Of a DNA stretch of 64,000 nucleotides, positions 34,268 to 51,523 are shown in pieces. The stretch is taken from NCBI GenBank assembly GCA_963169355.1, contig CAUJCR010000002.1, forward strand, positions 124,001-188,000, read 5' to 3'. This DNA is from Bacteroidota bacterium. GTDB taxonomy: Bacteria; Bacteroidota; Bacteroidia; B-17B0; Aurantibacillaceae. Position 1 is the first letter of the stretch; the number at the start of each line of letters is the position of its first letter. Under the pieces are notes generated by a model. It did no database searches. It was not told where the DNA came from and saw nothing but the letters and a program-made list of their open reading frames with translations. The position numbers and the translations under genes are program-made.

Positions 34268-34519
34268 CTAAGATTTTAATACAAAGGCCGAAACTATTAT
34301 TATACCTATTAGAAATAGTAAACTAAGCCGCCAAAATAAATGGGCTTTTTTAAGTTCCATAAAATACATAGCAACCATCATGATTTTAATAAATGAGATG
34401 AACATAATCAGCCCTTCTGAATGAGTAATCACATTGCTTAAATACAGAAAAACACTTGTAAGTGTTAGTAAAACCAAAAAAACAAGTATGCTATTAAGTC
34501 CTCTTATAAACATTATCAT
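34268..34519 (-). CDS. small cytochrome-oxidase subunit IV-like membrane protein (NorF-like)
   Basis: The 83-residue protein has three hydrophobic helices (about 8-28, 33-53 and 60-80) and the motif M-M-V-A-M-Y-F-M-E-L-K, typical of the prokaryotic cytochrome c oxidase subunit IV family. In nor clusters a protein of this kind (NorF) goes with the subunit III-like NorE and supports full reductase activity. It is the last gene, 17 bases after norE. Two Mets (1 and 3) are possible starts. Confidence 0.75.
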   Translation of the reverse strand: MIMFIRGLNSILVFLVLLTLTSVFLYLSNVITHSEGLIMFISFIKIMMVAMYFMELKKAHLFWRLSLLFLIGIIIVSAFVLKS

Positions 34520-34536
34520 TAAGCTTTAATTTACTT

Positions 34537-35127
34537 TTAGTTCATCAAATAAAGTATTGGGAAAATAAGTAGCCAAATTAAATCGCACATGTGCCAAAAT
34601 GCACCAGAAGCTTCGATATTATCCAATATTATTTGATTAGATTTTTTGACACTGTAATAAGTAAGCAACAGAATAACCAAGCCCACTAAAACATGCACTA
34701 AATGAAAGAGGGTTAAAAACCAATAGTATGAATAGAAAGTATTTGTATCAATAAAAATTCCTTGCTGTATTTTTTGAAAATACTCCACACATTTAAAGAC
34801 AATAAATAACAAACCTAAAACCATAGTAATCACAATACTAAACTTAAATTTCACAAGGTCTTCTCGTTTAACGTCTTGTATTGCTTTAGCCATAAAATAA
34901 CCACTCAGCAATAACAACACCGTATTAGTTGTGCCTATAAAAAGGTTAAGTTGATTAGAAGATTGTTTAAAGACTTCTGTCTCAAGATTAGAAGATAGTG
35001 TAAATGCAACTATTGCCATTCCAAACGTAATCAGTTCAAGGAAAATAATTATCCAGATTAATATCCCACCAGGAGGATAATAAATGTGATTAATTTCGTT
35101 AGTTGTATTTATATTCTCCTTTGTCAT
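34537..35127 (-). CDS. norE: cytochrome c oxidase subunit III-like protein NorE
   Basis: The 196-residue protein has five helices and the subunit III signatures W-F-L-T-L-F-H-L-V-H-V and F-W-H-M-C-D-L-I-W. No subunit I or II of an oxidase is near, while norC, norB, norQ and norD are directly upstream. It is therefore best read as NorE, an accessory membrane protein of nitric oxide reductase. It starts nine bases after the norD stop. Confidence 0.85.
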   Translation of the reverse strand: MTKENINTTNEINHIYYPPGGILIWIIIFLELITFGMAIVAFTLSSNLETEVFKQSSNQLNLFIGTTNTVLLLLSGYFMAKAIQDVKREDLVKFKFSIVITMVLGLLFIVFKCVEYFQKIQQGIFIDTNTFYSYYWFLTLFHLVHVLVGLVILLLTYYSVKKSNQIILDNIEASGAFWHMCDLIWLLIFPILYLMN

Positions 35128-35136
35128 CTTCTTATT

Positions 35137-36906
35137 TTATGATATTCGTTTTATCTTATCATATAATTTCACTAATGATGTTAGCAGCTCCACAGGAGTA
35201 GTTAATATCTGAAAATGATTCTGCCCGAACATCTGAGGGAGATAGTACTTAGCTTGAGCCTCAATAGCAAGAGCGTAGGAATGAATTTGTTGTTGGTTTA
35301 ATTCTCGCAAGGCTTGCTTTACATCATTTATACCATACTTTCCTTCATATTTATCGTAATCATTGGGTTTCCCATCCGAAAGTAAAATCAACCATTTGTT
35401 TTTTGAACTACGGGCACTTAATTTTTTCCCAGCATGACGCAGCGCTGTTCCGATTCTAGTATAACCTTGTGGTTCTACTGCACCAATTCTTTGCTTAGAC
35501 ACTTCCCATTTATCATCAAAATCTTTTAAGGTAAGATAACTAGAATAATTTCGTGTTTTTGAATAAAAAGAATCTATACAAAAATCAATTTGAAATTCAT
35601 TTAATATTTCTCCAAATAAAATTGACACCTCCTTCTCCACATCAATTACTCTATTGTTTGCAACATATCCATCACTCGACAAGCTAACATCAAGTAAAAT
35701 TAAAATGGAAATATCTTTTTCTTTCTTACGATTAGAGATGTAAATATTTTCGGATGGAGTTCTTTTTGATTGAATATCCACATACATATCTGTAATAGCA
35801 TCTATATCAAACTCAAACCCCTGTGTCTGTTTTCTTTGTTGAAGGAATTTATTATTAACATTGGTAAGCATTTTTCTCAGCCCCATCAATGTTGTGTGAT
35901 GTTTTTTTAGAGTATTGTAGTAATAATCACTATCCGTTTTTATTTGTATCTTAGGGTATAATTTACAGAAATCTACTTTGTATGAAGATTTGCTACAATC
36001 CCATTCATCATATTTAATAAACAGCCCATCTTCATCACGTTCGGCACTTTCCGAAACATTTGTGTTCTCAATAAATTCAGCTTGATAGATAGAGTGTGTA
36101 TCATTGTCCACCCTAACTGTATATTTCATATTCAATTCTTCGAGTGCATCACTATGCTCTTCTAACTCATCTTCGCCATCAAAGTCTCTCCAAGTTCCAT
36201 CAAACTCCTCTGCGGTTTCTACCTTTTCAAAACTATGCAACAGCACAAAATCTTCTTGCTGTTTTTTATCTACTTCCACTGTTTTAACCTCTTCAACTCC
36301 ATTCGCTTTCAAAACAGTCTGTGGTTTTAATTCGTTTTTAGTTTTTATCTTATTTGAAAATTGATTTAAAAGTGTTGAAGTTTCTTTTTCATCATTTATC
36401 ATCCATTTACCGTATAACCACGAATAATCAACTGATGAATTAGATGTAGAAATGCTTTCAAAATGTTTTTTTAATAGCCAATAAATCTCCTCAATAAACT
36501 TAAACTCTTTAAATAATCTATCAAGTACCTGTTGAGAGGTTCTATAAGCTTCCTGTTGAGACAGCTCATTTGTATAATCCTTTTTAACATGCCAATTAAG
36601 ATTCAATTCTTTTTGAATACTTAAATAAAGTACTCTAAAGTAATAGAAGGCTTTGTTCTGTTCTTTTGATGCAAGACGCGAAAATGAAATTGGTAGAAAA
36701 AAGGAATTGTTTTTGTAACCTCCCTCTCTTTCAGAAGGATAAATATCAATTGCTTTTCCAGTTACTGCTCTAGCAATAATGATAAGTTGAGGTTTTATTT
36801 CGGCTAATGTTACCGTTCTATCAACAACATATTCATTAGCTTTTCGTTTTGCTTTGAAATACTTTACAACTTTTCCATAAATATATTCATCTAACTCCAA
36901 GCCCAT
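35137..36906 (-). CDS. norD: NorD-like von Willebrand factor A protein
   Basis: The 589-residue protein has a long charged N-terminal region, a central acidic stretch (residues about 235-265) and a C-terminal VWA domain. The metal-ion site is visible as L-D-V-S-L-S-S-D-G and the later S-D-G-K-P-N-D-Y. NorD works with the AAA+ protein NorQ to insert or activate the non-heme iron of NorB. It follows norQ after 21 bases. Family and context both support the call. Confidence 0.9.
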   Translation of the reverse strand: MGLELDEYIYGKVVKYFKAKRKANEYVVDRTVTLAEIKPQLIIIARAVTGKAIDIYPSEREGGYKNNSFFLPISFSRLASKEQNKAFYYFRVLYLSIQKELNLNWHVKKDYTNELSQQEAYRTSQQVLDRLFKEFKFIEEIYWLLKKHFESISTSNSSVDYSWLYGKWMINDEKETSTLLNQFSNKIKTKNELKPQTVLKANGVEEVKTVEVDKKQQEDFVLLHSFEKVETAEEFDGTWRDFDGEDELEEHSDALEELNMKYTVRVDNDTHSIYQAEFIENTNVSESAERDEDGLFIKYDEWDCSKSSYKVDFCKLYPKIQIKTDSDYYYNTLKKHHTTLMGLRKMLTNVNNKFLQQRKQTQGFEFDIDAITDMYVDIQSKRTPSENIYISNRKKEKDISILILLDVSLSSDGYVANNRVIDVEKEVSILFGEILNEFQIDFCIDSFYSKTRNYSSYLTLKDFDDKWEVSKQRIGAVEPQGYTRIGTALRHAGKKLSARSSKNKWLILLSDGKPNDYDKYEGKYGINDVKQALRELNQQQIHSYALAIEAQAKYYLPQMFGQNHFQILTTPVELLTSLVKLYDKIKRIS

Positions 36907-36927
36907 CTTTAAACATAATTATAGACA

Positions 36928-37707
36928 CTAAATCATTAAGTTGCATAAATCCTTTAAAGCCTCAATGGTTTGTGGCTCATCTGTTAGTGGTTCCACAATT
37001 GCCACATGGCATGATAATCGTTTGGGAAGCCCTGTACAAATCAGTTTAGAAGCATCAACCAATAAACGTGTTGAAACGGTTTCTGTTAAACCTAGTTCTG
37101 TTAAATTACGTATCTTATTACCAATTGCAACTAATTGCTTAGCTGTGTCAATATCAACCCCAGTTTCTTTAGTTAAAATCTCTGCTTCTGAATTCGCATT
37201 GGGATACCTAAAGGTAATTGCAATAAATCTTTGTCGTGTAGAAGGCTTAAGTTCTTTAAATCCCTTTTGATACCCTGGATTAAAAGATGCCACTAACATA
37301 AAATCATCGTGCGCCTTTATGGTTATTCCTAATTTATCTATATATAATTCTCTTCGATGATCTGTTAAGGAATGAATTGCAACAATAACATCAGGACGAG
37401 CCTCGGCAACTTCATCAAGATACAAAATAGCGCCTTCTTTTACGGCAGTTGTTAATGGTCCATCAATCCACACTGTTTCAGAACCTTTAATAATAAAGCG
37501 CCCTATTAAATCGGTTGATGAGGTTTCTTCGTGGCAACTAATTGTAATTAATTTCTTATTAAGTTGATGAGAAACATATTCAATAAAGCGAGATTTACCT
37601 GTTCCAGTAGGTCCTTTTAATAAAAACGGAATCTTATTTTTATAAGCCTGTAAAAAAACATCTTCCTCCTTATCAATTACGTAATAATATGGTGTGCTAT
37701 TTTTCAT
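36928..37707 (-). CDS. norQ: NorQ/CbbQ-type AAA+ ATPase
   Basis: The 259-residue MoxR-class ATPase has Walker A G32-P-T-G-T-G-K-S39, Walker B Y-L-D98-E99, sensor I (V-A-S-F-N-P-G-Y) and the CbbQ_C tail. NorQ forms ring oligomers that remodel NorB together with NorD. It lies between norB (83-base gap) and norD (21-base gap), all on the same strand. Confidence 0.93.
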   Translation of the reverse strand: MKNSTPYYYVIDKEEDVFLQAYKNKIPFLLKGPTGTGKSRFIEYVSHQLNKKLITISCHEETSSTDLIGRFIIKGSETVWIDGPLTTAVKEGAILYLDEVAEARPDVIVAIHSLTDHRRELYIDKLGITIKAHDDFMLVASFNPGYQKGFKELKPSTRQRFIAITFRYPNANSEAEILTKETGVDIDTAKQLVAIGNKIRNLTELGLTETVSTRLLVDASKLICTGLPKRLSCHVAIVEPLTDEPQTIEALKDLCNLMI

Positions 37708-37790
37708 AAAATCATTTTAAAAAAAACCAGAGTTAATTAGATTATAAATTATAATTTCTTTAAACTCTGGTTTTACAAACAACAAACAAT

Positions 37791-39131
37791 CTAACTAAGT
37801 TTTGCTTCTAGAGCTTCGTCGGTTGGTTTACCATATTTTATAAATTCATAGATATATAATATAATACCAGTTGCAAATAACGTAGCGCATAAAATTAAAA
37901 CAACAAAATGGATGCTGATTTCGTTTTGCACATCCATAAATTCCATCTTCATTTTTCTTTCCATATAAACCTGTGCAACACCAGCTACACCAAAAGCTGT
38001 AGTCATTCCAATCATACCAATATTTGATAACCAGAATGCTAATTTACCTTGAGTGCTTTCATGACGTTTTCTGCCTGTTAAATTAGGAATAGCATAGCTG
38101 ATAATTGCGAGAACAATCATAGCATAAGCTCCCCAAAAAGCTAAGTGACCATGCATAGCTGTAACTAAAGTTCCATGGGTATATAAATTAGTTTGTGGTA
38201 GAGTATGAGCAAAACCAAGAACTCCAGCTCCAATGAATGAGACAATAGCTGCACCAATTGTCCAGAATATTGCTAACTTATTTGGATGACTCTTTTCGCC
38301 TTTACGATACATATTGATTGCAAAGAGTGCCATTGCTAAGAACGCTAATGGTTCAAGGGCTGAAAAAATACCACCTACTACTAACCAAATTTTGTTTACG
38401 CCTATGTAATAATAATGATGCCCAGTTCCTAAAATACCTGATAAAAATGTTAACCCTACTATTACATATAACCATTTTTCAATTACTTCTCTATCTACGC
38501 CTGTTAACTTAATAAGTAAGAAAGACAAGATACCGCCCATTATTAATTCCCAAACACCTTCAACCCATAAATGCACAACCCACCAGCGAAAAAAAGCATC
38601 AGTTACCTGGCTATCAAACCAAATCATACCAGGCAAATACAATAAAGCAGCAAATAATAAGCCCATTGTAAGCACGATTGCTGTTGTTGTTTTTCGTTTA
38701 CCTTTCCATAAAGTTGCTAAAATTAATCCTAAGAATAGAAGAACATTTACAACTACTAAGAAATCTAACTCTCTTGGAATTTCTAAAAATTTTCTTCCTT
38801 CCCAGTAGTTAAAATGATACCCAACTACTGCCACTACACCTACTACGGCTAAGGAAATTAATTGAACATAGGCTAGTTTTACATTCACCAATTCTTGTTG
38901 AGCTTCTTCTGGAATAATGTAATAAGCTGCACCCATAAAACCAGTGAGTAACCAAACAACTAATAAATTAGTATGAACAGCGCGTGCTGTATTAAACGGA
39001 ATGACATCATGAAGACCATCCATTCCTACTCGGGCAAAACCCATGATGAAGCCATATACGATTTGTAACACAAGTAATAACATGCATAATGCAAAAAACC
39101 AATAGGCTACTTTTTGTGATTTATATTTCAT
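37791..39131 (-). CDS. norB: nitric oxide reductase, cytochrome b subunit (cNor)
   Basis: NorB is the catalytic subunit that reduces 2 NO to N2O in the inner membrane. The 446 residues form about 12 helices and keep the expected ligands: H53 (low-spin heme), H187 with H238 and H239 (non-heme iron), H327 and H329 (heme ligands), and the glutamates E191 and E195 of the catalytic pocket. It lacks the fused N-terminal quinol-oxidising extension of qNor, so it needs NorC. norC lies 22 bases upstream. Confidence 0.96.
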   Translation of the reverse strand: MKYKSQKVAYWFFALCMLLLVLQIVYGFIMGFARVGMDGLHDVIPFNTARAVHTNLLVVWLLTGFMGAAYYIIPEEAQQELVNVKLAYVQLISLAVVGVVAVVGYHFNYWEGRKFLEIPRELDFLVVVNVLLFLGLILATLWKGKRKTTTAIVLTMGLLFAALLYLPGMIWFDSQVTDAFFRWWVVHLWVEGVWELIMGGILSFLLIKLTGVDREVIEKWLYVIVGLTFLSGILGTGHHYYYIGVNKIWLVVGGIFSALEPLAFLAMALFAINMYRKGEKSHPNKLAIFWTIGAAIVSFIGAGVLGFAHTLPQTNLYTHGTLVTAMHGHLAFWGAYAMIVLAIISYAIPNLTGRKRHESTQGKLAFWLSNIGMIGMTTAFGVAGVAQVYMERKMKMEFMDVQNEISIHFVVLILCATLFATGIILYIYEFIKYGKPTDEALEAKLS

Positions 39132-39153
39132 AATTTTTGTTTTTAAAGGTTAG

Positions 39154-39585
39154 TTATTTTTCTTTCGATAAAGGGGATACTACTTGGTCAAATCCATTCA
39201 AATTAATTTCACCTATCCACTTAAAATATGCAATTACAGCATCTGCATCTGCATTATTCATTTTATAAGCAACCATTTTTCGTCCCTTTGGTCCCCATGG
39301 AATTGGTGATGTAAGAATAGATTTAATATAACCTTCTCCTCTTCTTTCATAAACCTTAGTGAGTTCGGGCGCATAATAAGCTCCTTCGCCTAATATGGTA
39401 TGACATCCCATGCAATTGTTAGACTCCCATATTTCTTTACCTCTAACAACTTTTTCATCAATGTTCTGATGATTAGTTTGATCGTTTTTAGGGCTTAGCG
39501 AATACACCGTTAATCCAATAAAGATTAAAAATGTAACGGCTGTTCCTCCTAAAAAAAACGCTCTGGCTTGTGATTTTGATAGCAT
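39154..39585 (-). CDS. norC: nitric oxide reductase, cytochrome c subunit
   Basis: The 143-residue protein has one N-terminal membrane anchor (about residues 10-30) and a single c-type heme site C58-M-G-C61-H62. Met residues that could be the sixth ligand lie downstream (K-M-V-A-Y-K-M). It receives electrons from periplasmic carriers and passes them to NorB. It is the first reductase gene of the cluster, 48 bases after the porin gene. Confidence 0.95.
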   Translation of the reverse strand: MLSKSQARAFFLGGTAVTFLIFIGLTVYSLSPKNDQTNHQNIDEKVVRGKEIWESNNCMGCHTILGEGAYYAPELTKVYERRGEGYIKSILTSPIPWGPKGRKMVAYKMNNADADAVIAYFKWIGEINLNGFDQVVSPLSKEK

Positions 39586-39633
39586 AGTTTTTGGTTTTTT
39601 TAGATTTATTACTGAGTTGATATTTATTTTTTG

Positions 39634-40968
39634 TTATTTATTACCATTTAAGAAAGTAGGCTTAAAACTAATCATCAAATAAGCCCAATTATTTGTTAGG
39701 TTCGTTCTACCATCGCCCTTATAATCTTTAACGTTTTTAATTGTAGCTAAAGTGTTAGACACTAGGTAATGAGAGTAACCTCCCTTTATCATTACATTAT
39801 TTGGTAATTTATAGGTAAGTGTTAAATCGATTTCAGTTCCTAAGTTACTATCAAGTGCTTTGTATTCACCTGTTTTAGCTAATTCTTTTGTATTTAGGGC
39901 ATTAGCAGCTGTTATAAACTGATGAAAATCGAGCGCTATACCCCAAGTTTTCTCATTATATCCTAACCTAACAACAAAATCTTGTAAGCCTACATTATTT
40001 AAATGATTTCCTACATAATAATAATCCATATAACCATTAAACTTATGATTAGTCCCAAAAACCGGATTAAACGCATGATTTACATCATTATAGGCTTTTG
40101 TGGTGTCTGTTTTGCTTTGTCCAGAGATATATTCATAACCTATTCCCATCAAAAATTTTTCTTTTATTGTATAAGCTATATCTATACTACCTAATAACGC
40201 ATTTACCTTTTTAGGTTTACCTGTGCTAGTACTTGTAATATCATCACCTGTTTGATAATAAAAATTTGCGCCCACAAATAATGGTTTGGTTTTATATTCA
40301 ATTCTAGTTCCAGCGGTAGTAATGTATCGAGTGCCTCCAACACTAACTGGAGATTGTTGTCCTACATTTAAACCTAACAAGCTAATCTTTAATTGTTTTA
40401 TCTGCTTGTGAAGCCATAAATATTGCATCTCTTTATAACTTCCAACAATTGTATAAGCAGTAGCCACATTACTTACCTTGTCTTGATTGTAGGCAACTCC
40501 AGCATGTATCGCCCATGAACTATCTACATATTTTAAAACCATTGCATCATGACTTCTTGCTTGTTGCGCCCAATCAACAGCTCCTAAAATCCGTTCATCA
40601 TCATAACCTAACTCCTGACGGCCTAATTTCATTGATAGCTTCTTAGTAAATAAATACTCAGCCCAGCCCTCATGTAAGCCATAGGTATTTATATCATTAT
40701 TATTTGCTTGGCTTTGATTTCCCCAAACGCGTACATCTTGTAATACAATCCCGAGTTTTATCTTCTCATGACTATACCCAAAGTTAAGTCGGGTACGCTG
40801 CTGTATAAATTGCGAAGAAGATTGTCCTGAATCTATTGGTGTTGAAAAACCATGCCTATACTCAAAGCGAGGACGAACTTCCCCACTTAAAACTATTTGT
40901 GCTTTTACGGTATAAAACAAAAACATGATTGTAACATAGGCTACAGTTCTATTTAAATCTACTTTCAT
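39634..40968 (-). CDS. alginate-export-family outer-membrane porin heading the nor cluster
   Basis: The 444-residue protein has a signal peptide (about residues 1-23, ending V-K-A-Q). It continues with a beta-barrel pattern starting V-L-S-G-E-V-R-P-R-F-E-Y-R and the motif K-L-G-R-Q-E-L-G-Y-D-D-E-R. These are marks of the alginate export (AlgE-like) barrel family. In Bacteroidota such barrels often accompany respiratory genes and are not evidence for alginate. The gene shares orientation and a probable promoter with norCBQDE. A role in letting small solutes pass near the reductase is only an inference. Confidence 0.82.
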   Translation of the reverse strand: MKVDLNRTVAYVTIMFLFYTVKAQIVLSGEVRPRFEYRHGFSTPIDSGQSSSQFIQQRTRLNFGYSHEKIKLGIVLQDVRVWGNQSQANNNDINTYGLHEGWAEYLFTKKLSMKLGRQELGYDDERILGAVDWAQQARSHDAMVLKYVDSSWAIHAGVAYNQDKVSNVATAYTIVGSYKEMQYLWLHKQIKQLKISLLGLNVGQQSPVSVGGTRYITTAGTRIEYKTKPLFVGANFYYQTGDDITSTSTGKPKKVNALLGSIDIAYTIKEKFLMGIGYEYISGQSKTDTTKAYNDVNHAFNPVFGTNHKFNGYMDYYYVGNHLNNVGLQDFVVRLGYNEKTWGIALDFHQFITAANALNTKELAKTGEYKALDSNLGTEIDLTLTYKLPNNVMIKGGYSHYLVSNTLATIKNVKDYKGDGRTNLTNNWAYLMISFKPTFLNGNK

Positions 40969-40986
40969 ACCTCATAAATTTTAATA

Positions 40987-40994
40987 CAAATTTA
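40987..40994 (-). promoter_or_regulatory. -7 box of the porin-nor operon
   Basis: On the minus strand this reads TAAATTTG, a full match to TAnnTTTG, 18 bases before the porin ATG. The nearest TTG (minus, 41021-41023) is 26 bases upstream, too far for a normal -33 element. This suggests an activator-dependent promoter. Confidence 0.5.
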
Positions 40995-41012
40995 TCGGAC
41001 AAAAACATCCGA
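40995..41012. promoter_or_regulatory. inverted repeat abutting the nor -7 box (candidate operator)
   Basis: TCGGA-N8-TCCGA (five-base perfect arms) lies directly upstream of the -7 box. The position suits an NO- or oxygen-responsive regulator. It is not the FNR consensus TTGAT-N4-ATCAA, and I do not recognise the arms as any known site. Confidence 0.35.
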
Positions 41013-41094
41013 ATAATTGACAATAATTAGTTTAATAGAAAATAAATCGTGATTATTGTTAGTTTTAAAGGGAGAATATAGTAATGAGGAGGTG

Positions 41095-44000
41095 TTATTT
41101 TATTCTCACCCCAATAATGGTAACATCGTCTATTTGCTCGAGTGTACCCACCCAATTATTAAAAGTAGTTTCCAATAGTTGATATTGCTCCTGCATTGGC
41201 AGATGGGCGTTTGTAGCTAATAATTCTCTCAAATTCTTACTCATAAATTTCTTTGCCTTCGGTCCTCCAAATTGGTCGGGAAAACCATCAGTTAGAGTAT
41301 AAATCACATCGTCTTTCTGAATTTCAAACTCATGTATGGTAAATGATTCCTCTTGCCTATCATGCTTGCCTACTGGCATTTTATCTGGTTTAACCTCTAT
41401 AACCTCTCCTGCTCTTACAATCCATACTGGATTATTAGCGGCTGCAATTTGTAATTTATTATGCTCTAAATCATATACGCAAAGACTACAATCCATACCA
41501 TCTTTACCGCCTTCTTCACTCCCATCTCTTTTAAGTCGTTCAATAATGGTTTTGCGAGTAGCATTAAGTATGTCGTGTGGTTTATTAAATTTCTCAATCG
41601 CTTTTTCTAAACTGGTAATATTTAATAAACTCATAATAGCGCCAGGCACACCATGCCCTGTACTATCCGCAGTAGCTAAAATAAATTGACCATTTGATAA
41701 TGTAGCACTCCAATAAAAATCGCCGCTTACCACATCTTTCGGTTTAAAAAACACAAAATAATTTTCAGACTTATGAGTTGCTGATTCAGAATTAAGATTA
41801 ACATCTAAATGTTGTTTGGTAGCTAAGAAACTACGTTGAATTCTTTCAGCATAATTTATACTATCCGTTATTTCTTTGTGTTTTTCTTCTATTAAATGTT
41901 TTTGAGCTACCACCTCGGCTGTACGCTCTTTTACAATCAACTCCAACTGGTTTTTGGCCTTTACTAATCGACGAACGCTTATTTTTATAATTACATAAAT
42001 GGTTCCTATAACAAGCAATACATATAAAGCATAAGCCCAATAGGTACGATACCACGGTGGTAGAATAATAAAAGAGAAGGACGATTCTATACTCTCTTCA
42101 TGATAATTATTTTTAGCTTTTACTCTAAAAGTGTAAGTTCCTTCTCTTAAATCAGTATATTCTTTATTATTCTTAGTTATCCAAGCAGACCATTCTTTAT
42201 CATACCCTTCTAATATGAAACTATATTGTAATTTATCTTCCGAACCATAACTTGTTGCAGAAAAATCAAAAATCATCGAATTATATTGATACGCGATTTC
42301 AGTCTTCTTTAACGAATCAACAAGATATCCTCTATAAATAGTAGAATCTTTATCTATCGTTACCTGACGTATCAAAGCATAATAAGGAATTGAAAAATCT
42401 TTCTTTACTCTGTCGTCATAACGCACAACGCCATCAGGGCCTCCCAACCATGTAATTCCATCTTCTTGTGGATAAATAGCATGAATTTCTCTTTCTACAA
42501 TTCTTAAAAAAGGCTGTGTGTGTAGAGAATATGAGCCATTAGATTGAGCCGTTGCCTCTAGTACAAGTTTCTCTCTTTTTCCAGAAACCGTAAACATCAA
42601 GGTAGTTAAACTATCCTTAGGTACAAAACGATAAATTTGTTTATCACGAAATGCATTACCATACAATTGCGATGGATAGAATCGCGATGTGTTTTTATTA
42701 AATTGATACAAACCCTGTGTTGTTGCAAAAACAAGTTGATGATTATATAAACGAGGAATATTATACTGCATATCTGGTAAGCCCTGCGATGTATCATAAT
42801 GATGAATAGAGTATGGCTGTCCCCAAGCAGTTAGGTTACTATTTTTAGACTTCTCAGTTTCTGAAAAATTAATTTGAAATATGCCATTTAATGGTGTGCC
42901 GAGCCAAATATTATGAGAGTCATCTTCGGCAATACTTCTTATTTCATCATCAATTCCTTCAAGATAGTCTTCATCAACCCATTGCTTGTTATCATAACGT
43001 ATAGAAGATACACCATCGGAATTTGCAATAAACAAGCGGCTTGTGTTTTGAGCAGACTGCATAAGATTAAAACTAAAACAGGATTTAATAAACTCTGCTG
43101 AGAACTGATTAATCTGGGCAATACCAGCCTCAGTAGCTACTAACAACAAAGTATCAGTTTGAGTATAGAATTTTTTTAATGCCCAAGATTGAACATTAAT
43201 GCCGTGTATAGGAACAAAATAATCGTTTACTGAACCATACACACCCAATGAAGTTGCTACATATAATATGTCTTTAAATTTAATTATATCATATACATAG
43301 CCAACTAATCCTTGTGCATCATTTAAAGTTGTTAATGGTGAAGACGCCTCAATGTGGGCTAAGCCATTAGCTAAAGCTACCCAAAAATCACCTTGAATAT
43401 CCGTAGTAATAAATTTTACAGCATCATCTCTTAATCCACATTTTTTATTAATTATACGGTTTAACTTACCTTGTTGGTCAATTATAATAACACCTCCTTG
43501 CAGAGTGGCAAAAGCAAATAATCCATTCTTTAATTTACAAGCTCCGTAAACTTGTTGGGCAATAAGTTCATTATTAACTTCGATATTCCACTCTCTAAAT
43601 AATTTATCCTGCGCAGCCTTCTTATCAAGAAACCATAATCCATTTTCTCTTGTTGCTATTAAATATTGATTGTCTGAATAAGCAACAATAGAATAAATAC
43701 GAACATCTTTAAAAATCTCAGCTCCTGGTAATAGAAGCAGTGAGTCATGAATAAGTTGTTTCAGTCCTTGACCACGTTCATTAATAAATAACTGTCCATC
43801 CACTTCAAAACTTAGATGAAATGATGTTGAAGGTTTCCACACTTTAACAGATTGGTTTTGTACTCTAATTAGTTTAGTAAAGGTTTGAAAATAAACTGCA
43901 TCACCTATAATATACGTTTTCCATACATCAGCAAAATTTCTTTCATTAATAGGTAATAAATTAACTAAAGAGGTATAAGATAATATGCCTTCCTTATTAG

Positions 44001-45562: not shown

Positions 45563-48500
45563 TTATTTCATTATAATCAACTTTTTAACCAACATTTGTT
45601 TTCCAACTTGTATGTGAATGAAATAAATACCAGGACTATAATAATCCGTTGATACTTGCTCAACAAAATTTCCACTAAATCCTCTACTCTCAATTCTCTT
45701 AATATGTTTTGCTTGAGCATCTTTAATATCAATAGTGATATCTTCCTCCACTGGCAAGAAACCTTTTAAGGTAAATTGATCGCGTGCAGGATTAGGATAA
45801 AGTTCAAACCCACCAAGTGCTTTAATAATAGTAGTGGCTCGAGTAGGTATGCCTGTACTATCATTTTCGTTAAACCATCTAGCGTTGCCTCCTGCACCAA
45901 CAACAATCCCTTTTCCACCACCACCTTTCACTCTTAATGTACTTTGATCGCCTTTATTTCCTACAGAGTATCTAATCCAGTTGTTTCCATTATCAACCGA
46001 TTTATATACGATACCGCCTGTACCAGTTGCCCAAATAGTATCTGAACTTGCTACCTCAACACTATTAAAATCTACATCCACACCTGTTAGTGATGGCAAC
46101 CAATTTAAACCTCCATCAGACGTTTGTAAGATATTACCATTTGAACCAACTGCAAATCCATTTACTAAATCTGAGAAGCGAACATCTTTAATATGGAAGT
46201 TAATTGGCGAAGATTGTGCTGACCAGTTCGAACCGTCATACGCTAAGATTGTTTGATTATCTCCCACCGCAAAAGCATTTCCATTTGATAATTCAAAAAT
46301 ACCATTGAGGTGTTCTGTAGTACCCGAACTCTCAGGGGTAAATACAGTACCATTATATTTTTGAATGGTACCGTTTTTACCTACTATATGACCAAGTGAT
46401 GTACTTGAGAAATGCGAAGCGTTGATGTCTTCGGTTGTTCCAGTTGAAACAGGAGACCAACTGGCTCCATCATCTATTGATGTTAAAACTGTACCGTTTT
46501 TACCTGTTACGAACCATTTGCCTGGTAATGCGCAAGCTCCAGTTAATGGCACAGAATTACCTGTCGGTAATGGCGTAAACACTTTTCCACTATCAACACT
46601 TAATCCACAATTACCATCTGCTAAAGCAATAATTCCTTTAGTAGGGTCTTGGAACGAAACACCTGTAATATCAATAGTAGTACTAGTTACACTAGCATAA
46701 CTTGGGAATAATTGTTCTACCTCTATATAATCATTCTTAACTAAGGTTTTAGAACATCCTGCATTATCTGTTACAGTTAAAGATACTGTATGATAAGCTA
46801 TAGTATTATAAGTGTGGCTTGGGGCAGCTAAAGTAGAAGTTCCACCGTCACCAAAATCCCAAGCATACGTATAAGGAGGGAATCCAGTTGTATTTGCCGA
46901 GAATGTGGTTACCGCATTAGGAATAAACACTAACGTAGGAGTTCCTGTAAAATCAGCTAATGGATCATCTACCTCTACTGTAAAGCCTGTAGAACTTGTA
47001 CCACAATTATATATATTATAATTAGTTACACTATACGAACCAGCAACCAAAATGGCAACTGTTTGTGTGGTAGCACCATTACTCCATAAATAAGCATCGG
47101 CTACATCAGTTGATAGAATAACTGAATCTCCGATACAAATACTGCTCGGTCCTAGAGCTGTAATAGTAGGCGTTGATGGATTAGGATTTACTACAACTTC
47201 GATGCTCGCTGTTGTTGCAGCCGCACAACCATATAAATCATCTACCGATACGGAATATATTCCAGCTGTGGTAACATTAATGGTTTGTGTAGTAGCACCT
47301 GTACTCCAAGCATAATTTGTACCTGTGTTTGCCGATAACACAACACTTCCACCTGCACAGAATGTAGGAGAACTAGCAGGCGTAATACTTGCTACGCTTG
47401 GGGTATAAACTGTTACTGCAATTACAGATGATGTAGCTGTACAACTACCATTACTTACAGTTACACAATAATTATCACTAGTAGTTGCTGTTATACTCGA
47501 GGTTGTAGCGCCTGTATTCCAAGTATAAGAACTTGCTGATGAAGAAGCTACTAAATCAACACTTCCACCTACACAGAAAGTTGTGTTTCCAATGGCACTA
47601 ATACTTACTGTAGGCGTAGGATTTACAAAAATGGTTATCTCATCACTTGAAGAACAACCACCCGATCCTGCATTTACAGTATAAGTTGTAGTAATAGTAG
47701 GATTAGCCACAACCGAATAACCCGTATTGGCACTTAAACCAGAAGTTGGTGTCCAAGTATAAGTTGAACCTCCAGTTGCTATAATAGTTGTTGATTGACC
47801 TTCGCAAATAGTTTGGTCAACACCTGCATCTATTACTAAGCTGTTTGTTACAATAACAGAAACAACATCTGTAGCTGTACATCCATTATCGCCCACTATA
47901 ACAGTATATGATATTGTAATACTTGGATTTGCTACTGGAGAAGCACTATTTGGATTATCTAATCCAGTAGATGGTGTCCACGTATAAGTTGAACCACCCG
48001 TTGCTGTTAATGTAGCCGATGTTCCAGTACATATTGTAACATCATTACCCGCATTGGCTAAAGGAAGCGGAGTAACCGAAACAGTAACCACATCACTTGC
48101 TGTACAAGTACCATCACTAACGGTTAATGTTAAAGTTGAAGTGCTTCCTAATGTAGCTGTAGGCGCATAACTATTAGGGAAATCAAATACTCCCGAAGGA
48201 CTCCAAGTATATGTTGTTCCTGATGTTGAAGGATTCATCACGACTGAATTTCCTTGACATATAGATTGATTGCTTCCAGCATCTACCATAGGCAGTGGTT
48301 TTGCATTTACAACTACCACATCTGTAGAAACACATCCACCAGATGTTGTTACTGTTACAGTATAAGCTGTTGTGGTAGTTGTTGTTACTACCGGATTTGG
48401 AATGCCAGTATTACTTAATCCTTGTGGCGGACTCCAAACATAAGTAGCACCACCACTAGCATTTAAAATAGCGGAAGATCCATAACATAAATTTATATCA

Positions 48501-51500
48501 GATCCTGCATTTGCAAACGGGGTATTATCAACTGTTACAGTAACCACGTCGCTTGATACACAGCCACCGCTATTACTTGCCGTTAATGTATAAACGGTTG
48601 TAACAGATGGGTTAGCCGTAGGATTTGGAACATTCACATTATTTAATCCAGCCGAAGGTGTCCAAGTGTATGATGTGCCTCCACTTCCATTAAGCGTTGT
48701 AGAAGCACCAAAACAAACACTAACATCAGTTCCTGCATCTACATTAGGTAAAGGAGTAACCGAAACAGTAACTACATCGCTAGCAGTACAAGTACCATTA
48801 CTAGCTGTTAAAGTAAATATAGATGTAGAACTTGGTGAAGCAGTTGGATTTAAACTATAAGGGAAATCAAATGCACCAGTTGGATTCCAAGTAAAGGTTG
48901 TGCCCGAAGTAGTTGGGTTCATCATCACAGACCCACCATTACATATTACTTGATCTAATCCAGCATCTACAGTTGGTTTAGCTATTGCAAAAACTGTCAT
49001 TACGTCGGTAGATGAACAACCGCCAGCATTGGTAACCGTTACTGTGTAATTAGTAGTATTAGTTGTTGTTACAATTGGTGTAGCAATTCCTGGATTACTT
49101 AAACCAGCAGATGGCGACCACACATAACTTACCCCACCAGTGGCATTAAGCGTAGAAGACGAACCATGACAGAGATTAATATCTGGACCAGCATAAGCTG
49201 TAGGTGCTGTTTGAACCGTAACTAACACATTATCGTTTCTTACACACACACCATTACTCACGCTTACCGTATAATCTGTGGTTGAAGTAGGATTAACAAT
49301 TGGATTAGATACATTTGGATTATCTATATTGAACACTGGAGTCCAAGTATATGAAATGCCTCCAGATGCATTTAACCCTACCGAGTTTCCTAAACAAATT
49401 GTTACATCACTTCCAGCATTAGGTGTAGGAGGTGATACAACAGTTACATTAACTACATCGGTTGCTGTACAACTTCCATTACTTGCCGTTAAAGTATAAA
49501 CTGTTGTTCCATTAACATAAGGAAAGGCTTTTGGTGTCATGCTATTTGGATAATCAATAATTGGGTGAAATGTCCAACCATCAAAATAAGTAGTAGGCGA
49601 CCAAGTATAGGTTACACCTCCCGATCCATTTAATGTTACTGAATCACCCGAACAAATTGTTTTATCTAAACCAGCATTTACACTTGGCAATGATAATACT
49701 GTTACGTTTACTTCATCGGTTGAAGAACATGCTCCATTAGATACAGTTACAGTGTAAGTAGCATTTGTAGTAGTACTTACTACTGGATTAGCCACTGTAT
49801 TTGAACTTAATCCTGTAGCTGGTGTCCAAAGATAAGAAGTACCACCGCTCGCATTAAATGTAGTAGTTGAACCTAAACAAACTGATTTATCAGCTCCTGC
49901 ATTTGCTGTAGGAGCCGCTAAAACATTTACACGCACAACATCATCTTTCGTACAACCATTATTAGTTACAGTTACTGTATAATCTGTTGTGATAGTAGGA
50001 TTAGCAACAGGACTAGCAATATTAGTAGCACTTAATCCTGTGGCTGGCGTCCAGCTATACGAAGTACCTCCAGTAGCTGTTAAAGTTGTAGAGGCTCCAA
50101 TACACACGGTTGCATCGGTTCCTGCATTTGCTGAAGGTAAAGGCGTTACCGAAACTGTAACAATATCCTTTGCTGTACAAGTACCATCACTTACCGTTAA
50201 GGTGTAATTGGTTGTTGTAATAGGTGTTGCTGTTGGATTTGCACTATTAGGGAAATTTAATGAACCTGATGGTGTCCAGGTAAATGAACTACCTCCAGAA
50301 GCGTTAAGCATGGTTGATGAACCATTACAAATAGTTACATCAGATCCAGCATTAGCCGTTGGTAAAGATTTTACAGTAATAGTTACTACATCTACATCAC
50401 TACATGCACCATTACTAACGGTTAAGGTGTAGGTTGTTGTATTGGTAGTACTTACTACAGGATTAGCTGAAGTTGTAGAACTTAAGCCTTGTGCAGGCGA
50501 CCAATTATAAGTACCTCCACCCGAAGCATTAATGGTTGTATTTGAACCTATACATAAATTCAAATCAGGTCCTGCATTAGCCACAGGTGCCGCTGTTACA
50601 TTTACGGTTACCACATCCGTTTTACTACATCCATTTTGTGTTCCAGTAACAGTATAAATGGTAGTAACGGTAGGATTTGCTACAGGATTAGAAACGGTTG
50701 TGCTACTTAAACCAGTGGCTGGACTCCAACTATAACTTGTTGCTCCACTTGCATTTAATACAGTTGCATTACCGCTACATACTGTTGCGTTATTTCCTGC
50801 ATCTACTGTAGGTAAAGCATTTACAGTTATCGAATTAGTCATAACCTTTGTATCCGAACCAAACGCATTACTAACAGTTAAAGTAACACTATACACCCCA
50901 GGTGTGTTATATACCACATTAGGATTTTGAGTTGTACTTACAGAGGGCGTTCCTCCCGCAAAGGTCCAATTCCAACTTATTGGTGTATTGGTTGATTGAT
51001 CGGTGTAGCTTATTGCATTTCCAACACAAACAGTTTGCGTACTTACGCTAAACTGTGCTACTGGCGGATTTACAGAACACTGCGTGAACGTCGTCATTGC
51101 CGAACCATCATCTGTTCCCCCCATATAGGCATAAAACTGTGGAGGCGTGCCACATACGGTTGTAGTGTATGTAAGAAGAGATGAACCATCGTCTGTTCCA
51201 CCAAAATAAGCGTAAAACGCCGCAGGTGTACTACACACAGTTGTTGTATATGTAAGTAAAGCCGATCCTTCGTCGTTACCACCCATGTAGGCATAAAAAC
51301 TAGAAGGTGTTCCGCAAGCACTATAGGTTTTTGTATCGCTCGTTTTTAAATTTCCTGCGCCTCCAAAAAATGGAGAAAATTGTGGAGGCATAGCGCAAGA
51401 AACTAACGTATAAGTATCGGAGGTTTCAACATTTCCGTTACCTCCTATGTATTGAGCAAAACTAAGTGCAGGCAGAAGCAGGGCTAAACTTACCAAAAGG

Positions 51501-51523
51501 TGATATTTAGTTGCTTTTATCAT
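45563..51523 (-). CDS. giant adhesin-like protein: short repeats, PKD and Ig-like arrays, YCF48 propeller, type A T9SS signal
   Basis: The 1986-residue protein reads, in order: signal peptide (1-23); five short F-Y-A-Y-M-G-G-type repeats (about 25-150); PKD domain (152-237); 14 Ig-like modules of about 75 residues (239-1304), each with A-G-x-D, one Cys near its start and a second near its end; three divergent Ig-like modules (1305-1521); a second PKD domain (1522-1604; W-D-F-G-D-G-G). A YCF48/BNR-type propeller follows (1605-1895; repeats such as S-D-G-G-L-N-W), then a T9SS type A signal (L-Y-P-N-P-A-R-D). Paired cysteines suggest one disulfide per module. It is the last gene of an operon with two SUMF1-fold genes. 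A surface fibre or adhesin role is inferred. Confidence 0.88.
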   Translation of the reverse strand: MIKATKYHLLVSLALLLPALSFAQYIGGNGNVETSDTYTLVSCAMPPQFSPFFGGAGNLKTSDTKTYSACGTPSSFYAYMGGNDEGSALLTYTTTVCSTPAAFYAYFGGTDDGSSLLTYTTTVCGTPPQFYAYMGGTDDGSAMTTFTQCSVNPPVAQFSVSTQTVCVGNAISYTDQSTNTPISWNWTFAGGTPSVSTTQNPNVVYNTPGVYSVTLTVSNAFGSDTKVMTNSITVNALPTVDAGNNATVCSGNATVLNASGATSYSWSPATGLSSTTVSNPVANPTVTTIYTVTGTQNGCSKTDVVTVNVTAAPVANAGPDLNLCIGSNTTINASGGGTYNWSPAQGLSSTTSANPVVSTTNTTTYTLTVSNGACSDVDVVTITVKSLPTANAGSDVTICNGSSTMLNASGGSSFTWTPSGSLNFPNSANPTATPITTTNYTLTVSDGTCTAKDIVTVSVTPLPSANAGTDATVCIGASTTLTATGGTSYSWTPATGLSATNIASPVANPTITTDYTVTVTNNGCTKDDVVRVNVLAAPTANAGADKSVCLGSTTTFNASGGTSYLWTPATGLSSNTVANPVVSTTTNATYTVTVSNGACSSTDEVNVTVLSLPSVNAGLDKTICSGDSVTLNGSGGVTYTWSPTTYFDGWTFHPIIDYPNSMTPKAFPYVNGTTVYTLTASNGSCTATDVVNVTVVSPPTPNAGSDVTICLGNSVGLNASGGISYTWTPVFNIDNPNVSNPIVNPTSTTDYTVSVSNGVCVRNDNVLVTVQTAPTAYAGPDINLCHGSSSTLNATGGVSYVWSPSAGLSNPGIATPIVTTTNTTNYTVTVTNAGGCSSTDVMTVFAIAKPTVDAGLDQVICNGGSVMMNPTTSGTTFTWNPTGAFDFPYSLNPTASPSSTSIFTLTASNGTCTASDVVTVSVTPLPNVDAGTDVSVCFGASTTLNGSGGTSYTWTPSAGLNNVNVPNPTANPSVTTVYTLTASNSGGCVSSDVVTVTVDNTPFANAGSDINLCYGSSAILNASGGATYVWSPPQGLSNTGIPNPVVTTTTTTAYTVTVTTSGGCVSTDVVVVNAKPLPMVDAGSNQSICQGNSVVMNPSTSGTTYTWSPSGVFDFPNSYAPTATLGSTSTLTLTVSDGTCTASDVVTVSVTPLPLANAGNDVTICTGTSATLTATGGSTYTWTPSTGLDNPNSASPVANPSITISYTVIVGDNGCTATDVVSVIVTNSLVIDAGVDQTICEGQSTTIIATGGSTYTWTPTSGLSANTGYSVVANPTITTTYTVNAGSGGCSSSDEITIFVNPTPTVSISAIGNTTFCVGGSVDLVASSSASSYTWNTGATTSSITATTSDNYCVTVSNGSCTATSSVIAVTVYTPSVASITPASSPTFCAGGSVVLSANTGTNYAWSTGATTQTINVTTAGIYSVSVDDLYGCAAATTASIEVVVNPNPSTPTITALGPSSICIGDSVILSTDVADAYLWSNGATTQTVAILVAGSYSVTNYNIYNCGTSSTGFTVEVDDPLADFTGTPTLVFIPNAVTTFSANTTGFPPYTYAWDFGDGGTSTLAAPSHTYNTIAYHTVSLTVTDNAGCSKTLVKNDYIEVEQLFPSYASVTSTTIDITGVSFQDPTKGIIALADGNCGLSVDSGKVFTPLPTGNSVPLTGACALPGKWFVTGKNGTVLTSIDDGASWSPVSTGTTEDINASHFSSTSLGHIVGKNGTIQKYNGTVFTPESSGTTEHLNGIFELSNGNAFAVGDNQTILAYDGSNWSAQSSPINFHIKDVRFSDLVNGFAVGSNGNILQTSDGGLNWLPSLTGVDVDFNSVEVASSDTIWATGTGGIVYKSVDNGNNWIRYSVGNKGDQSTLRVKGGGGKGIVVGAGGNARWFNENDSTGIPTRATTIIKALGGFELYPNPARDQFTLKGFLPVEEDITIDIKDAQAKHIKRIESRGFSGNFVEQVSTDYYSPGIYFIHIQVGKQMLVKKLIIMK
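47612..50809 (-). repeat. fourteen tandem Ig-like modules with a three-module higher-order period
   Basis: The coding repeats are about 225 bases each. Modules 3, 6, 9 and 12 share a variant loop ending P-N-S or P-Y-S (for example D-F-P-N-S). Modules 2, 5, 8 and 11 share N-P-V-V or T-P-I-V followed by Thr-rich sequence, and modules 1, 4, 7, 10 and 13 share the A-N-P/V-N-P loop and mostly end in A-P or T-P. The unit of expansion was probably three modules (about 675-700 bases). Confidence 0.75.
51073..51451 (-). repeat. five short coding repeats at the adhesin N-terminus
   Basis: Repeats of 24-28 residues begin around F-Y-A-Y-(M/F)-G-G-x-D-(D/E)-G-S and end T-V-C-(G/S)-T-P, each with one cysteine. 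The last three are nearly identical; the first two are shorter and divergent (G-G-N-G-N and G-G-A-G-N). Confidence 0.75.

Follow-up and report, generated by a model that had tools for sequence, protein, structure and literature searches.

We analysed a stretch of 64,000 nucleotides from a Bacteroidota genome (the window; C2:124001-188000 of a 3.2 Mb assembly in 61 contigs, 97% complete), in which seven minus-strand open reading frames follow one another in the order porin-norC-norB-norQ-norD-norE-norF from position 40968 to position 34268. The first gene (39634..40968) encodes an outer-membrane porin with an AlgE fold, here read as a putative nitrite/nitrate channel. Its product matched Alginate_exp (PF13372) with 72 bits against a cut-off of 25.2 and begins with a signal peptide that ends, as judged by eye, at about residue 22. 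The remaining six genes belong to a cNor-type nitric oxide (NO) reductase: norC (39154..39585), the cytochrome c subunit with one CxxCH motif, adjoining norB; norB (37791..39131), the catalytic subunit, with a COX1 match of 214 bits; norQ (36928..37707), a CbbQ/NorQ-type AAA ATPase with AAA_5 and CbbQ_C matches; norD (35137..36906), an activation protein with a VWA match; norE (34537..35127), COX3-like by its match to that family; and a norF-like gene (34268..34519), with COX4_pro at 30.1 bits against a cut-off of 28.9. The complete cNor locus headed by a barrel gene that had been proposed in an earlier sequence-only reading was thus confirmed family by family.

The cNor gene set itself is ordinary. 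The canonical ligand residues H53, HLWVEGVWEL, HH238-239 and HGH327-329 are kept in the NorB alignment, where we take FeB to be bound by H and HH, the glutamates to be those of HLWVEGVWEL, and haem to be bound by H53 and HGH. NorB is 72-88% identical to the other aligned cNor NorBs of the phylum sample described below, so that this is no chance assembly of genes. With all subunits and accessory genes present, the locus resembles a canonical norCBQD(E)(F) operon and differs from it in having an outer-membrane porin as its first gene. Along the run from porin to norF, successive genes are separated by 48, 22, 83, 21, 9 and 17 bp. Terminator-like matches on the minus strand occurred at chance level, and the sole one across the run lies inside norB. 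Since the gaps are short and no terminator rises above chance, a single porin-to-norF transcript starting in the 40969-41094 gap is plausible, and from this arrangement we infer co-expression.

The sequence-only reading had seen no nitrite or nitrous oxide reductase gene and had suggested that the cell might detoxify or respire NO made by others. The absence holds for the window but not for the genome. The only nirK match (C8:6912-7979, on contig 8) lies above the NCBIfam cut-off for copper nitrite reductase and is followed by SUMF and SCO genes that reach 9436, forming a nirK-SUMF-SCO trio at C8:6912-9436. A nosZ of the Sec-dependent type, likewise above its NCBIfam cut-off, is found at C2:105533-107530, within a cluster at ~104.9-111.3 kb of contig 2 that also holds cytochrome c, nosL-, nosD-, nosF- and nosY-like genes (named by eye) and ends ~13 kb before the window start. 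At the level of the genome, the suggested dependence on NO from others is thus not supported. A genome search for molybdenum nitrate reductase (PF00384) gave only a match of 20.5 bits, below the cut-off, and the NrfA search of the genome gave none. Since nirK, cNor and nosZ are present while these two were not found, the organism looks, from its gene content, like a stepwise nitrite-to-N2 denitrifier that would use NirK, cNor and NosZ. Passages of one survey give 60% terminators and 18% initiators in Bacteroidota (PMC12569097); on those shares, a bacterium that combines nir, nor and nosZ should belong to a minority in the phylum.

We then counted how often the porin accompanies nor. The phylum sample comprised 395 Bacteroidota genomes, 15 of them with a cNor NorB; 17 further genomes gave NorB matches of roughly 30% at E<=1e-30, which are probably qNor. 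The porin lies in the nor cluster in seven of the 15 (the window genome, G103, G134, G126, G212, G068 and G202). In G126 it leads a nirK-to-nor run, and in G212 the cluster porin is only 26% identical and falls under the phylum search cut-off (1e-15). The porin is on a different contig from nor in G296 (nrf-linked), G192 and G109 (both nirK-linked), and 28 kb from nor in G273; no porin match reached 1e-15 in G150, G013, G034 or G131. The norB of G192 (L048:6662-7998) is split by a stop or frame change in an otherwise intact norCBQD, which may be a sequencing error.

Within the window's own order, five of 87 genomes carry cNor (the window genome, G468, G415, G414 and G430), and in the first three of these the porin stands directly before norC. 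In G415, from the window genome's family, a porin 75% identical to that of the window immediately precedes norC. In G468, from the same genus and with a NorB 99% identical, the contig starts inside the porin gene, and the linkage is known only from the last 28 residues at the contig edge (417-444, 96% identical), which precede norC. The nor cluster of G414 holds no porin, and in G430 an Rrf2 gene precedes norC on a contig of 3.9 kb. Overall, the barrel is linked to nor, a link that the sequence-only reading had called worth testing, in nine of 19 cNor genomes, but leads directly into norC in only three of the 19; in the other ten, the nor cluster as far as it can be seen lacks a porin, some of these clusters ending at contig edges. 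The linkage is wider than the order, yet not universal, and so far only the window's order shows a porin directly ahead of norC.

The genes surrounding homologous porins gave a much broader picture. The phylum search at E<=1e-15 returned 88 places in 76 of the 395 genomes, of which 63 were mapped and 59, chosen mainly by score, were placed in two counted sets. From an independent scan of named genomes the best 80 loci were retained, including one from Flavobacterium denitrificans DSM 15936 (L302); the phylum sample and the named set may share species. As controls we used 21 regions, 20 picked arbitrarily from these genomes and one from a distant part of a porin contig. With the first marker set, a nitrate, nitrite or NO marker lay within 8 kb of the porin at 127 of 150 loci and in 0 of 21 controls. 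By set, the counts were 70/80 for the best named loci, 35/40 for the stronger phylum matches, 12/19 for the weaker ones, 6/7 for the window's order and 4/4 for cNor loci with the porin.

The marker labels were checked by family searches. Representatives of NrfA, NrfH, NirB, NirD, NirK and NosZ scored above NCBIfam cut-offs; those of NirS and Hcp matched their Pfam families, whereas for NasA and NarG the Pfam match was to the general Molybdopterin family alone; and NarK-type carriers matched NarK/NarU models below cut-off. Two labels were rejected: 'SIR-NirA', whose sole match was a rubredoxin domain, and 'NrtA', which came out as an NMT1-like binding protein, its nitrate role being unsupported by the search. 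A stricter recount dropped both, together with NrtB and an unchecked NarG-like marker, and kept families with a confirmed representative or with homology to the window nor genes. It marked 122 of 150 loci (69 of the best 80 named), a change from 127 that leaves the odds of the readings unchanged. When nor and Hcp were set aside as well, 115 of 150 remained, and nitrate and nitrite reductases alone marked 100 of 150; the controls stayed at 0/21 in each of these counts. Grouping the porins at 65% identity gave 98 clusters, 79 of them marked, or 77 of 96 once the rows selected for cNor were removed (first marker set in both cases). Porin and nirK occur together in 29 of the 395 genomes (porin in 76, nirK in 61; Fisher p 2.7e-8, a value that ignores relatedness). 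For 17 nirK matches from 16 genomes the distance to a porin is no more than 10 kb, and in 13 genomes with both, the window genome included, the two are apart.

The porin has nirK, nas, nrt-like, narK/narG and nrf genes as partners, and in most cases nor is not close by: it accompanies the porin at 11 of the best 80 named loci and at one of the 40 stronger phylum matches. Nitrate or nitrite, and not NO, is common to these partners, and the porin link is not specific to NO reductase. If the barrel were a functional partner of that enzyme, serving the passage of NO or N2O or the assembly of NorCB, its place in the cNor cluster in nine of 19 genomes would be accounted for. However, we rejected a partnership specific to NO reductase, given that most porin loci lack nor. 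The cNor genomes without a porin in the visible cluster and the uncharged nature of NO and N2O further argue against any such role, which we regard as very unlikely. As a small neutral gas, NO can do without a porin, and for this reason we do not count the porin as part of the NO reductase.

A shared need for a cofactor, whether copper, haem or molybdate, could also bring such genes together, since NirK and NosZ are copper-dependent, Nas and Nar depend on molybdate, and ModE-, moaA- or moaC-like genes (named by eye) stand near some loci. Nrf and NirS, on the other hand, depend on haem, NirK on copper and Nas on molybdenum. No single cofactor is common to the partners, whereas nitrite or nitrate is, and a porin serving cofactor supply instead of substrate supply is improbable.

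To follow the association through descent, a FastTree phylogeny was built from 149 porins (two of 151 were dropped for length); long branches were flagged, and the exact counts are soft. Mapped onto this tree, the partner labels changed 20 times for denitrification (at least 18 by starred branches), 11 times for nas/nrt, 18 times for nrf and 10 times for narG/K. All labels taken jointly required 44 changes, where shuffled labels averaged 88.5, which indicates that inheritance and exchange both shape the set of porin partners. The window and G415 porins group with two porins of narG/narK loci (99*). A nor-specific porin clade was unsupported, since the labels interleave on the tree.

The nirK trio told a similar story. 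G415 carries a run nirK-SUMF-SCO-porin-norCBQD-x-norE, its nirK cut by the contig end. The gene between norD and norE (L187:1120-3279) encodes a 719-aa protein whose N-terminus resembles, by eye, a SulP-type carrier gene of the window genome (L124:17287-18834). If the window operon had arisen by a simple split of a nir-nor operon of the G415 type, between SCO and porin, then the trio genes of the two genomes should group together. The SUMF, SCO and NirK trees rejected this origin: in these quick trees, the window proteins formed starred three-row sets (100*, 98* and 97*) in which the G413 and G383 proteins were the nearest rows, and the G415 proteins grouped with Flavobacteriaceae-type rows. 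Ahead of the trios of G413 and G383 stands another porin, which shares 33% identity with that of the window. This result indicated that two separate lines of descent, that of the porin-nor block and that of the nirK trio, met in this genome, which is consistent with the porin as an exchangeable module. No second porin was found in the window genome at E<=0.001, the window porin matching only itself.

We modelled the porin with AlphaFold2 on 59 sequences, 58 of which carry the PF13372 match. The predicted model has 18 strands and a mean pLDDT of 89.5. A profile of the porin alignment found no solved relative by sequence at E up to 1. By fold (Foldseek best E 2.9e-17), the best match was AlgE (4b61_A; Z 29.5, root-mean-square deviation (rmsd) 3.0 over 351 residues, 17% identity), followed by OccK2 (4fms_B; Z 28.1, rmsd 2.7 over 322). 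OprD/Occ proteins are substrate channels for small anions; those of Pseudomonas and Acinetobacter share the fold of the window porin (Z 25-28) and differ from it in their substrates and in sequence, with 9-14% identity. Across the 59 aligned porins, five arginines do not vary: R34, R58, R60, R117 and R126. In the model, K/R at 32, 34, 58, 60 and 114 face the side judged by hydropathy to be the lumen, as do most of the conserved basic residues of strands 1, 2 and 5.

The Pfam name would make the porin a true exporter of alginate or another polysaccharide, as is AlgE of P. aeruginosa. The shared 18-strand barrel, the PF13372 matches and the rank of AlgE as top fold match speak for this. Passages of an AlgE study (PMC4118822) name as gates L2 and T8, the latter a periplasmic gate loop. 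In the porin model, each of the eight turns assigned to the periplasmic side is 2-4 residues long, and the turn at the T8 place, between strands 16 and 17, has three (389-391), so that the long periplasmic gate T8 of the AlgE type appears to be missing. The neighbourhood also differs from that of an alginate exporter, being one of nitrate and nitrite genes. Among gene clusters with at least four members, judged by eye, no polysaccharide-synthesis family recurred, although no genome-wide search for alginate synthesis was made. We consider export of this kind extremely unlikely.

We therefore favour as probable that the porin is an anion channel supplying nitrite, and elsewhere nitrate, to the periplasm; both permeation and selectivity are what we infer from fold and neighbourhood. 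The first gene of a canonical cNor operon would then be an outer-membrane anion channel for nitrogen oxyanions. External nitrite would diffuse through it into the periplasm, the site of NirK, and cNor would clear the NO that NirK produces there. The porin would be an exchangeable nitrate/nitrite module, attached to varied reductase or uptake genes in each lineage and travelling here with nor. As to the wider claim, that AlgE-fold porins named for alginate across the Bacteroidota are dedicated nitrite/nitrate channels, recombined with assimilatory, denitrifying or dissimilatory nitrate reduction to ammonium (DNRA) gene sets and setting their substrate affinity, we hold the chances to be even.

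The main rival is a non-specific porin for anions or small solutes that is merely co-regulated with low-oxygen respiration and has no preference for nitrite or nitrate. An Occ/OprD-like fold is common to channels of many substrates, and such a porin is a realistic, though lesser, possibility. If low oxygen alone united the partners, however, they should not include assimilatory-type nas/nirBD clusters and NrtAB-like ABC carriers, which are not part of low-oxygen respiration; the oxyanion, not anoxia, is common to them. Several observations weigh against a dedicated nitrite/nitrate channel. A very similar neighbourhood pattern would be expected for a general anion porin. The charge of the lumen is nearly balanced (16 K/R against 12 D/E), as a non-specific porin would allow, and by a crude parity test the conserved R80 and R117 fall on the outward side. 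No marker lies within 8 kb at 23 of 150 loci, a point that also favours the rival, and the weaker homologs keep only 11 of 19 with confirmed markers. Fifteen loci (115 minus 100), including four of the seven from the window's order, were counted solely through a NarK-like carrier once nor and Hcp were set aside, and the NarK-type models are matched below cut-off. The 80 named loci are the best-scoring ones and biased to close kin, and the clustering of partner labels on the tree makes the loci non-independent. Finally, the absence of a nitrate reductase rests on an assembly that is 97% complete.

A partial precedent exists in Bacteroides thetaiotaomicron. Sections of a published study (PMC10434189) describe an 'alginate export family protein', BT1414, in the nrfAH operon BT1414-BT1418, in the order alginate export protein, ccsA, resB, nrfA, nrfH. 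Under iron limitation BT1414 was 30-36-fold down along with the operon, and the strain consumes nitrite; nitrite transport is not proposed in those sections. Homologs of the window porin at L109 and L114 head the same order of porin, cytochrome-c-assembly, ResB-like, nrfA and nrfH genes (families checked on L096, L109 and L111). The B. thetaiotaomicron operon differs in serving DNRA, not denitrification, and BT1414 is likened to the window porin by annotation and gene order. In the one open-access library searched, we found no statement of a general link between this porin and nitrate or nitrite. To our knowledge, specific entry of nitrate and nitrite across the outer membrane is much less studied than the inner-membrane carriers. 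If the porin is indeed such a channel, the Bacteroidota would have a recognisable oxyanion channel beside NirK, NirS, Nas, NarK, NarG and NrfHA, a misleading 'alginate export' annotation would be corrected, and substrate supply in denitrification and DNRA could be tested by one gene deletion. 'Alginate export' transcripts, which passages of an anammox metagenome-assembled genome study discuss with polysaccharides (PMC6714388), could then be re-examined.

The 126-bp gap before the porin (40969..41094, minus strand) is the likely promoter region. It contains TAAATTTG at 40987-40994, which fits TAnnTTTG, the Bacteroidota -7 motif. Abutting it on the upstream side is a palindrome, TCGGA-N8-TCCGA (40995..41012), a candidate operator. 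With a single exact copy in the genome, the palindrome gives no basis for defining a regulon, and we rejected it as a regulon motif. Upstream on the same strand, a gene for a large SpoIIE/Y_Y_Y-type regulator ends at 41095, and the downstream neighbour on the opposite strand is recQ. Elsewhere in the window, positions 45563-51523 encode a 1986-aa protein with PKD-like repeats, the C-terminal tail of which resembles, by eye, a Bacteroidota sorting domain.

Outside the window, the genome holds a second, divergent NorC/NorB-like pair (G000:C2:284691-286425; L050:8692-10426), whose NorB is ~20% identical to that of the window. In nine members from the window's order, the divergent NorB keeps H53, H238, H239 and H327 and shows H187->N (S in one member), E191->V, E195->N and H329->M. 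Putative NO dismutases, as described in parts of PMC3413370, have a His-to-Asn change and a catalytic-site Glu replaced by Gln; the divergent NorB resembles them in its His-to-Asn change and its replacement of a catalytic-site Glu, and differs in that the dismutases are qNor-type. Its neighbours are two tryptophanase-like lyases, a 621-aa protein without a Pfam match, proline dehydrogenase, RIC and fasciclin. Divergent NorBC pairs also lie close to porin-carrying narK/moaA/Crp nitrate clusters, on the named contigs L235, L250, L258 and L259 and at L197/L198, where NorB is 23-25% and 21% identical, respectively, to the NorB reference set.

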